Below, piece after piece: positions 4,250-11,718 of a stretch of DNA of 21,726 nt; position 1 is the stretch's first letter, and each line of letters begins with the position of its first letter. Source of the stretch: a virus; the IMG/VR virus record IMGVR_UViG_3300030331_001605, positions 1-21,726 of that record. One strand, given 5' to 3'. The notes under the pieces were generated by a model that was given only the letters and a program-made list of their open reading frames with translations, did no database searches and was not told where the DNA came from. The position numbers were made by a program, and so were the translations under genes.

Positions 4250-4278
4250 TTGACCTTTCCTGTAAATTAGTATATAAT
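4250..4278 (+). promoter_or_regulatory. Sigma70-like promoter for a candidate ncRNA
   Basis: TTGACC at 4250-4255 and TATAAT at 4273-4278 are separated by 17 bases, an almost ideal host sigma70 promoter. The predicted transcription start, about 4285, coincides exactly with the first base of a 12-bp closing stem of the downstream RNA candidate. Confidence 0.75.
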
Positions 4279-4284
4279 AGTAAT

Positions 4285-4473
4285 GTTGGATGGCATATAT
4301 TTAACAATTGACTTTAAGGAGGAAACTGTTAGTAGTGTGTAAGACTGGTGTAGTTACAAGTCGATGCCATTCAACAACTTAATACACAAACACATCACAT
4401 AAGTAAAATTGGCTTGTCCTAACAAACCTACCTCGTAAGAGACAAAGAACCTCAGGATGCTGGGGTTTTTTTG
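4285..4473 (+). ncRNA. Candidate structured non-coding RNA
   Basis: A roughly 190-base transcription unit with its own promoter and terminator and no substantial reading frame. GTTGGATGGCAT (4285-4296) pairs with ATGCCATTCAAC (4364-4375) as a 12-bp stem with a single G-U pair. Inside it, GACTT (4310-4314) pairs with AAGTC (4358-4362). A perfect Shine-Dalgarno sequence, AAGGAGG (4316-4322), lies within the loop but is followed only by a possible GTG-started 15-residue peptide (4335-4382). The 3' half is A-rich with a small CTC-GTAA-GAG hairpin (GNRA-type loop) near 4433-4442. It could be a trans-acting small RNA, a ribosome-site decoy, or a short leader-peptide transcript. I do not recognise a known family. 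This also accounts for the long gap between portal and cassette. Confidence 0.6.
4448..4473 (+). terminator. Rho-independent terminator
   Basis: AACCTCA pairs with TGGGGTT across the six-base loop GGATGC (one T-G pair), followed at once by a run of T residues. This would end the candidate ncRNA and separate it from the cassette promoter four bases further on. Confidence 0.8.
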
Positions 4474-4476
4474 TGG

Positions 4477-4505
4477 TTGACAGGCTAAGATAAATATGTT
4501 ATACT
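4477..4505 (+). promoter_or_regulatory. Sigma70-like promoter for the sugar cassette
   Basis: TTGACA at 4477-4482 and TATACT at 4500-4505 are 17 bases apart. The expected start point, about 4512, falls on the ATG of the 58-residue gene, so its mRNA may be leaderless. A GATAAATA box (4489-4496) lies within the spacer, so both an early (host sigma70) and a late-type promoter may overlap here. Confidence 0.75.
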
Positions 4506-9758: not shown

Positions 9759-10582
9759 ACACGCCATATGTAGATTTTGTCTACACCCTTTTTGTTGATG
9801 TTTTGTCCTAACTGTTGTGATAAGTTTTCTTCTGCGTCAGCACAAGGTATATATTGTGTTACTTTGGCATACATATCTGGTGATATATTGAATGCTATGT
9901 GTCCGCCTGGTTGTATGTGTTGTTTACACTTGTGATATAATGGCACAAAGAAGTTTTCATAGTAATCTGTGTCACTTTGCCATGGTGTCATGTGTTCATA
10001 TATTTCTAAGTTCACATAAGGTGGTGATGTCAGCACAAAGTCATAGTGTATTTTGCTGAAGTCTACATCCAAACAGTTTTCAAACAACATACACAAACGT
10101 TGTGATTCCAAGTACTCTATCATGTCTGTGTAAGCAGTACGCATTTGTGTATTGGTATCTATACCCACATAGTCTATGCCTAACACCCAAGCACCCAACA
10201 TTCTACCGCCCCAACCTGCTGTGGGATCTAATACAGCAGTAGCATTATACTTTTGGTATAACTGTTTGGCACATTGAGCCTTGAACATCACTATACTGCC
10301 ATAATTTATTCTGTAGCATTCAAACACATTACTGGCAGGGTTTGGACCTAATCTGCCACGTTTACTGGTATCACTTAACAGTTTGCTCCACTGAGCAGGA
10401 TCACTGTGGATTTCATATAGTGTTTTGCCACCTTGACGTTTGGTACGCATGAGATTTTTCAATTGAAAATGATACAAAAAAGGATTGCCAGCAAACTTTT
10501 TACCATTTATTAAGTTGCGTAAGTCTTGATCTAGTTGTTGTGGGGTGAGAAGTTTGTGCGTCTCAATGTCTGTGATATTCAT
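9755..10582 (-). CDS. DNA methyltransferase-like protein (amino-MTase type)
   Basis: A 275-residue SAM-dependent methyltransferase. Motif I appears as LDPTAGWGGR (residues 118-127) and motif IV as TSPPY (185-189), the signature of amino-methyltransferases acting on exocyclic nitrogen; SPPY is often seen in N4-cytosine enzymes. PGGHIAFNIS (225-234) follows as a later strand. Motif I precedes motif IV with about 60 residues between and no large target-recognition domain, so the specificity is not predictable. Residues 1-110 form a separate helical, basic N-terminal part. It lies between TerS and TerL with ATGA overlaps at both ends, so it should be made together with the terminase. It may protect phage DNA from host restriction or mark DNA for packaging; an RNA or protein substrate cannot be excluded. 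Confidence 0.82.
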   Translation of the reverse strand: MNITDIETHKLLTPQQLDQDLRNLINGKKFAGNPFLYHFQLKNLMRTKRQGGKTLYEIHSDPAQWSKLLSDTSKRGRLGPNPASNVFECYRINYGSIVMFKAQCAKQLYQKYNATAVLDPTAGWGGRMLGAWVLGIDYVGIDTNTQMRTAYTDMIEYLESQRLCMLFENCLDVDFSKIHYDFVLTSPPYVNLEIYEHMTPWQSDTDYYENFFVPLYHKCKQHIQPGGHIAFNISPDMYAKVTQYIPCADAEENLSQQLGQNINKKGVDKIYIWRV

Positions 10583-10746
10583 CGTAAAAGTGCTGGATTA
10601 GGGGCATTAAGCATTTTTGATTTAAGAATTACAGCAAAACCACACATTACACATTCATGAGAATAACTGTTTGCTGTATCTTGATTGAGTTTCCGGTTAG
10701 TTAACTCCGTGGAGATCAAACCTAACCCAGCATATATATTTATCAT
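10579..10746 (-). CDS. Small CxxC protein, 55 residues, between TerS and methyltransferase
   Basis: This short frame starts at ATG 10746, overlapping the TerS stop (ATGA), and ends at TGA 10579-10581, overlapping the methyltransferase ATG (ATGA). The double overlap fills the apparent 160-base gap between the two larger genes. The 55 residues begin MINIYAGLGLISTELTNRKLN and include HECVMCGF (C32, C35), half of a zinc-ribbon-like site, then a basic hydrophobic stretch (AVILKSKMLNAPNPALLR). No second CxxC pair is present, so metal binding would need a dimer or His residues. Family unknown. Confidence 0.65.
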   Translation of the reverse strand: MINIYAGLGLISTELTNRKLNQDTANSYSHECVMCGFAVILKSKMLNAPNPALLR

Positions 10747-11277: not shown

Positions 11278-11295
11278 AAAAAGGTCTAAAGACCT
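11278..11295 (-). terminator. Short terminator-like hairpin upstream of TerS promoter
   Basis: On the minus strand AGGTC pairs with GACCT across TTTA, followed by a T run of five (the last stem T included). The stem is only five base pairs, so strength is doubtful. It may insulate the TerS promoter from transcripts coming from the right. Confidence 0.4.
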
Positions 11296-11304
11296 ATTCA
11301 TTTC

Positions 11305-11325
11305 GCAACCACTACGTGGAGTTGC
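11305..11325. other. Hairpin in the non-coding region
   Basis: GCAAC (11305-11309) pairs with GTTGC (11321-11325), continued inside by CAC/GTG with a three-base loop and a two-base bulge. It is flanked by TTCATGAA, a small palindrome. Function unknown. Confidence 0.35.
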
Positions 11326-11368
11326 TTCATGAAAGTTTTTTCTTACATTCTGTTTTAGAAGTTTCAGT

Positions 11369-11403
11369 CAGAAGGAACCACTCTCGGTTCCCTCCTCATT
11401 CTG
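11369..11403. other. Strong hairpin with bulged CTCCTC
   Basis: GGAACC (11374-11379) pairs with GGTTCC (11386-11391) across ACTCTC; outside this CAGAA (11369-11373) pairs with TTCTG (11399-11403), leaving CTCCTCA bulged. On the plus strand CCTCCT (11391-11396) is anti-Shine-Dalgarno-like; on the minus strand it reads AGGAGG. The 11-bp stem in a gene-poor stretch suggests a structured RNA element on one strand. Confidence 0.45.
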
Positions 11404-11562
11404 TATTCATTGTGTACAGCCATGTATTGGAAGCAGGTATTTTATCACAGTTCATTGGATCTCTTGCTCACTCCACACCTGCCAAGGCCTAGTATATGCT
11501 TCGTTCTCTGTACATATATTGTTTATGAACTATTGTGTAACCGGATAACAGAAACAATCCTT

Positions 11563-11718
11563 ATGAGTGTGGTTACCAAAATCGCCACGTTTGTCTCAGC
11601 CTATATGTCTGGGGGCCAGCCTTATGTTCTGTTTGTAAAGGGTTCTGTGTTTGCCAATGTTTGCCTAACACTTTTACTTATCATCTGGTCAAAAAAATCC
11701 CCCTATAAAGATGAGTAA
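11563..11718 (+). CDS. Possible small membrane protein, 51 residues
   Basis: The frame from ATG 11563 encodes MSVVTKIATFVSAYMSGGQP..., with hydrophobic stretches around residues 3-15 and 29-42 and a charged end (SKKSPYKDE). Its stop lies in the loop of the terminator at 11697-11728. The frame is open upstream to about 11410, but that part looks random. There is no Shine-Dalgarno sequence, and codons such as ACG, GTC, GGG, CAG and CTG are unlike the neighbouring plus-strand genes. It may equally be a chance frame within a non-coding region. Confidence 0.25.
   Translation: MSVVTKIATFVSAYMSGGQPYVLFVKGSVFANVCLTLLLIIWSKKSPYKDE

Follow-up and report, generated by a model that had tools for sequence, protein, structure and literature searches.

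In this study we describe domain A, a structured RNA which, judged by comparison of its relatives, is a real and previously undescribed phage RNA. It was analysed in a virus record of 21.7 kb (IMGVR_UViG_3300030331_001605), the whole stretch of which is called the window. Our tentative reading, held with somewhat less than even confidence, is that the window unit is a non-coding phage RNA, about 189 nt long and composed of two separately mobile structured domains, A and C, the first of which acts in trans and is bound by a protein. The features of the unit are as follows (all on the + strand):

4250-4278, sigma-70-like promoter TTGACC-N17-TATAAT (11/12 consensus match; 6 nt between -10 box and P1)
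4285-4375, domain A, structured RNA with conserved AGGAGGAAACUGUU (covariance model R1, covariation)
4285-4296, P1 5' arm GUUGGAUGGCAU, pairs with 4364-4375 (both-side changes at 11/12 P1 pairs, 10 homologues)
4301-4306, P2 5' arm UUAACA, partner strand 4327-4332 (L006 and L080 have a compensatory switch from UA to AU)
4316-4326, purine motif AAGGAGGAAAC (GAG predicted paired with upstream CUU; AGGAGGAAACUGUU identical in 10/10 homologues)
4327-4332, P2 3' arm UGUUAG (fold, covariation)
4333-4340, conserved linker UAGUGUGU with GUGUGU core (GUGUG fixed 12 nt from GGAGG, 9/10 homologues)
4343-4362, P3 hairpin GACUGGUGUAGUUACAAGUC (also in L004 and L118; missing or altered in other homologues)
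4364-4375, P1 3' arm AUGCCAUUCAAC (fold, covariation)
4400-4473, domain C: UAAGUAnnnnUGGCUUGUCCUAAC motif, hairpins H1 and H2, terminator hairpin (motif then hairpins, 26 viral contigs)
4442-4473, intrinsic terminator AACCUCAG-GAUG-CUGGGGUUUUUUU (fold; equivalent hairpin and T-run in most domain C relatives)

Relatives and database searches

A 20-mer of the domain A core was present in four IMG/VR contigs. The set was widened by looser patterns and a terminase-based collection to ten distinct elements: the window, L001/L002, L003, L004, L006/L007, L014, L017/L120, L080, L102 and L118, so that nine distinct relatives, all in IMG/VR phage contigs, stand besides the window. Exact copies occur once per record (11 carrier records and the window; the records are fragments). 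A still looser core pattern found no further phages, and matches of the core pattern in a Blautia genome, which lack P1, were rejected as chance.

The search of the window against Rfam 15 gave no hits at the gathering threshold and only chance hits when relaxed, the domain A relatives gave none at gathering, and ARAGORN found no tRNA or tmRNA match. No description of the domain A RNA was found in the literature, and DNA search found no homologues in cultured phages. Five of the latter, the pelagiphages HTVC111P, HTVC112P, HTVC202P and HTVC026P and phage DSL-LC06, are distant portal relatives of the window, at 24-27% identity only.

Covariation of domain A

At the level of sequence comparison, the evidence that domain A works as RNA is strong. 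AGGAGGAAACUGUU is invariant across all ten elements. The P1 arms differ (GUUGGAUGGCAU, GUUGAACGACAU, GUUGAACGAUAC, GUUGAAUGAUAC, GUUGGAUAGCAC, GUUGAACGGUAC, AGGCGGUAACAC, UGGUAGUAGCAC), each having its complement downstream. Both-side changes occur at 12 of the 17 helix pairs and 95.9% of the cells in the helix alignment are paired, a pair count which leans slightly towards pairing, the arms being hand-trimmed with bulges of 1-2 bases removed; the covariation score was 0.614, compared with 0.244 for shuffled alignments and at most 0.181 for slid controls. The 12-bp stem proposed by the sequence-only reading of this DNA is present, its first base lying 6 nt after the -10 box, and the compensatory changes which that reading had set as its own test were found at 11 of the 12 pairs.

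Covariance model R1, constructed from six domain A elements with the window excluded, found the window element at exactly 4285-4375 (56.8 bits, E=1e-8) together with the other held-out elements (L014, 6e-6; L102, 9e-5; L006, 2e-4), and scored the strand opposite to the window element far lower. The window has all the marks of the family, i.e. covarying P1, P2, AGGAGGAAACUGUU and GUGUG. An inner GACTT/AAGTC pairing, also suggested earlier, is not supported: in the window, L004 and L118 the partner of AAGUC is GACU within its own P3 hairpin, and GACUU sits in the strand opposite the purine motif. The tip helix is not proven, because changes in it are one-sided, falling only in the strand that pairs with GAGG. 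Pairing of domain A UGUUAG with domain C CUAACA was considered and rejected, as it is lost in L006 and L080, where domain A has UGUUUG.

A DNA-level site (cos/pac or origin) would agree with the single copy and the location near terS in many phages. We regard it as very improbable in view of the covarying arms, which lie 50-80 nt apart around an asymmetric conserved inside, the compensatory change in P2, the promoters at the first base of the stem and the terminator at the end.

Transcription unit and domain C

The promoter reported for the unit was confirmed at its place with 11 of 12 consensus positions, and P1 starts at the predicted +1 in both the window and L004. The L004 promoter matches at 12/12 and ends 7 nt before P1; that of L118 matches at 11/12 and lies 68 nt upstream of domain A. 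The hairpin said to close the unit was recovered at about 4442-4473, clear in the fold and with seven T at its end; the promoter/terminator scan did not flag it. These results support the claim that the non-coding RNA is self-contained, with a promoter and a terminator of its own. The window copy is predicted to be driven by the sigma-70 promoter as a separate transcript, and in the window and L118 domain A would form the 5' half of a longer transcript and domain C the 3' half. The 191-nt window RNA is more stable than its shuffles (z -2.36), which taken alone gives modest support. A second near-perfect promoter, TTGACA-17-TATACT, located at 4477-4505 (+) immediately 3' of the window terminator, probably serves the next gene.

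Domain C consists, in this order, of UAAGUAnnnnUGGCUUGUCCUAAC, a hairpin around conserved UUGUCCUAAC, a second hairpin and the terminator hairpin, and the window carries the complete pattern, in which UAARUAnnnnUGGCUUGUCCUAAC precedes a hairpin and then one resembling a terminator. The H2 stem covaries strongly (1.359 vs 0.256 shuffled, with hand-trimmed arms), and a T-run was noted in 19 of the 29 listed copies, the remaining ones shown keeping a strong hairpin. Exact copies occur once in most records tested. Such comparisons establish domain C as a second conserved RNA element ending in a terminator.

The A + C unit is also present in L118 (L118 and L027 come from one contig, and the L027 TerL shares about 60% identity with that of the window) at the window-equivalent place, between the portal and a homologous HTH-like gene. 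Domains A and C are separated in L001, L003 and L080. In L006, whose portal is 97% identical to that of the window, there is no A + C unit here and domain A is located behind terS; the unit is therefore a module that can be gained or lost. A conserved block UAGUAAUUGAUnUUUGGCAAnAU..GGCUACUUG within a stem was also noticed upstream of domain C in L010 (about 2650-2880), L014 and L102.

Genome position and the terS slot

Domain A is located directly behind terS in seven elements, as the sole filler of this slot in L001, L003, L017 and L080 and nested in a larger element in L006, L014 and L102. In the window, L118 and L004 it follows its own sigma-70-like promoter, and the terS slot of these records (window, L004, L118/L027) is taken by another RNA type. 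In L017 a methyltransferase gene separates domain A from terL; therefore domain A is not tied to terL and is not a terL leader. Translational coupling to terL was rejected as well: short frames end at the terL start in L001 and L003, while L006, L014, L017 and the stand-alone copies differ.

In most near relatives terS is directly followed by an RNA that has a variable inside and a long closing stem covering the terS-terL spacer, and such RNA is found behind terS also when other genes come next. L015, L006 and the window have homologous spacer frames with differing hairpin caps. These observations speak for a packaging-associated RNA working with TerS, of which domain A would be one slot type, similar to phi29 pRNA in role only. 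The packaging RNA of phi29 is a structured phage RNA whose ends pair over a long stretch and whose sequence varies; these are traits of domain A too, and the latter often lies beside terminase genes. The domain A phages, in contrast, have TerS and TerL without a phi29-like ATPase context, and in 3/10 of them (window, L004, L118) domain A lies away from terS with a different RNA in the slot; moreover, isolated pelagiphages with related TerS have no domain A-like element in the regions read behind their TerS genes. A packaging role is quite improbable. We give a low probability to the related proposal that domain A is one type of rapidly changing terS-linked RNAs which aid terminase or late expression in trans and can move to a promoter of their own.

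Several other structured regions were observed around terS. The RNA behind terS in the window (10591-10732, -) has the stem UGCUGGGUUAGG/CCUAAUCCAGCA and the motif CUCCACGGAGUU..CCGG, and the listed 55-aa ORF overlapping it (10579-10746) is probably not a gene. Upstream of terS, at about 11290-11485 (-), lies a conserved structured RNA, GGCAGGUGUGGAGUGAG..AAGAGAUCC..ACCUGC..GAGGAGGGAACCG..GGUUCCUUCUGAC, common to L001, L004, L015, L018 and L048, with its end near a hairpin and T-run; it has no Rfam match, and the plus-strand ORFs 11316-11492 and 11410-11718 are antisense to it. The more distant relatives L040, L042 and L034 have a common spacer motif behind terS (UAAGACCUCUGCC..GUAGUAGGGAU..ACAGAGGC), and L046, L052, L062 and L081 carry a repeated block, GAUUUGAUGAUAGCAAGUGGC..AGUCAGAAGGAACCUGUU..GGUUCC, possibly another structured RNA.

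Purine motif and the ribosome

The sequence-only reading had described an exposed AAGGAGG. The motif itself is present at 4316-4322, but its GAG(G) or GGA part is predicted to be paired with a pyrimidine-rich run of varying letters, the unpaired probability being mostly <0.1 in nearly all homologues. It could still act as a 30S decoy or ribosome-binding RNA, in which AGGAGG would bind the anti-SD of the 16S tail and thereby sequester 30S subunits or attract them: AGGAGG is invariant, GUG stands at a fixed 12 nt, and the predicted duplex (-10.2 to -12.2 kcal/mol, calculated with a general bacterial 16S tail which may not be that of the host) outweighs the predicted cost of opening the motif, 4.0-5.2 kcal/mol. 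Conservation, however, extends beyond the anti-SD complement, with AAAC in place of UGAU, and goes on as AAACUGUU and GUGUGU; the motif is predicted half-paired, and neither an optimally spaced start codon nor a conserved frame accompanies it. We consider a decoy unlikely.

In the RNA of the lambda bar minigene a very short frame comes after an SD-like sequence, and domain A resembles this RNA in the SD-like sequence and, in L004 and L118, in an MCS-stop frame; it differs in its frame of 3-20 codons, the spacing of 12 nt and the partly paired SD. The 15-codon GTG frame behind AAGGAGG does exist in the window. The peptide leader derived from it finds no support, as the GUG frames are unrelated after Met-Cys, and a conserved peptide or minigene was rejected on the differing frames (MCKTGVVTSRCHSTT, MCS, MCS, MCSWTIMS, MCQYSRSTH and others). 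For an antisense RNA against the phage's own genes, no conserved complementary site was found in them.

Action in cis or in trans

The main rival to action in trans, possible though rather doubtful, is a cis-acting leader, i.e. an RNA for processive antitermination in the manner of put, or one that regulates its own transcript in some other way; it would fold as RNA polymerase leaves the promoter and let the enzyme through the terminator at 4448-4473 and those beyond. The put RNA of HK022 is composed of two adjacent stem-loops in about 70 nt and needs no protein to suppress termination in cis; putL is located immediately after PL (PMC9378689). P1 at the predicted +1 in the window and L004 recalls this arrangement. 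Domain A is likewise a strongly folded phage RNA of about 70-90 nt with a promoter before it and terminators beyond it; both the window and L118 have a terminator and then co-directional genes after domain A, the terS-slot copies would precede late genes, and every domain A copy lies upstream of co-directional genes. On the other hand, put has two tandem stem-loops, lacks a long closing stem and occurs twice per phage, whereas domain A, in which two adjacent stem-loops are not found, has a long closing stem around an inner hairpin and one copy per record. Several domain A copies, unlike put, have no nearby promoter, and that of L118 is 68 nt away. The need for readthrough is also weaker, because the promoter at 4477-4505 directly follows the window terminator.

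As the first choice of function we infer a structured RNA that acts in trans and binds a protein through a hairpin. P1 and P2 would fix the shape of the purine-rich inner loop, a phage or host RNA-binding protein would recognise this loop and the GUGUGU linker, and the RNA might serve as a scaffold or titrating partner. Acting in trans, it could be produced as part of the terS mRNA or by a unit of its own. Action in trans seems preferable because there is one copy of the element, whose form is the same in either setting, and we prefer protein binding to anti-SD pairing since conservation follows AAACUGUU and GUGUGU and not the anti-SD complement.

Conclusions

Domain A is a new, well-supported structured RNA, and its carriers are uncultured marine phages, distant kin of pelagiphages. 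GOLLD, ROOL and similar Rfam RNAs were likewise found by covariation, with function at most partly known (PMC12286853, PMC2864571); domain A is far smaller than GOLLD and ROOL and has no Rfam match at gathering and none credible at a relaxed threshold. It couples strict conservation of one strand with free movement across genome positions. Almost all terS 3' spacers of the near relatives contain an RNA, which makes a role of RNA in packaging, late expression or host takeover testable.
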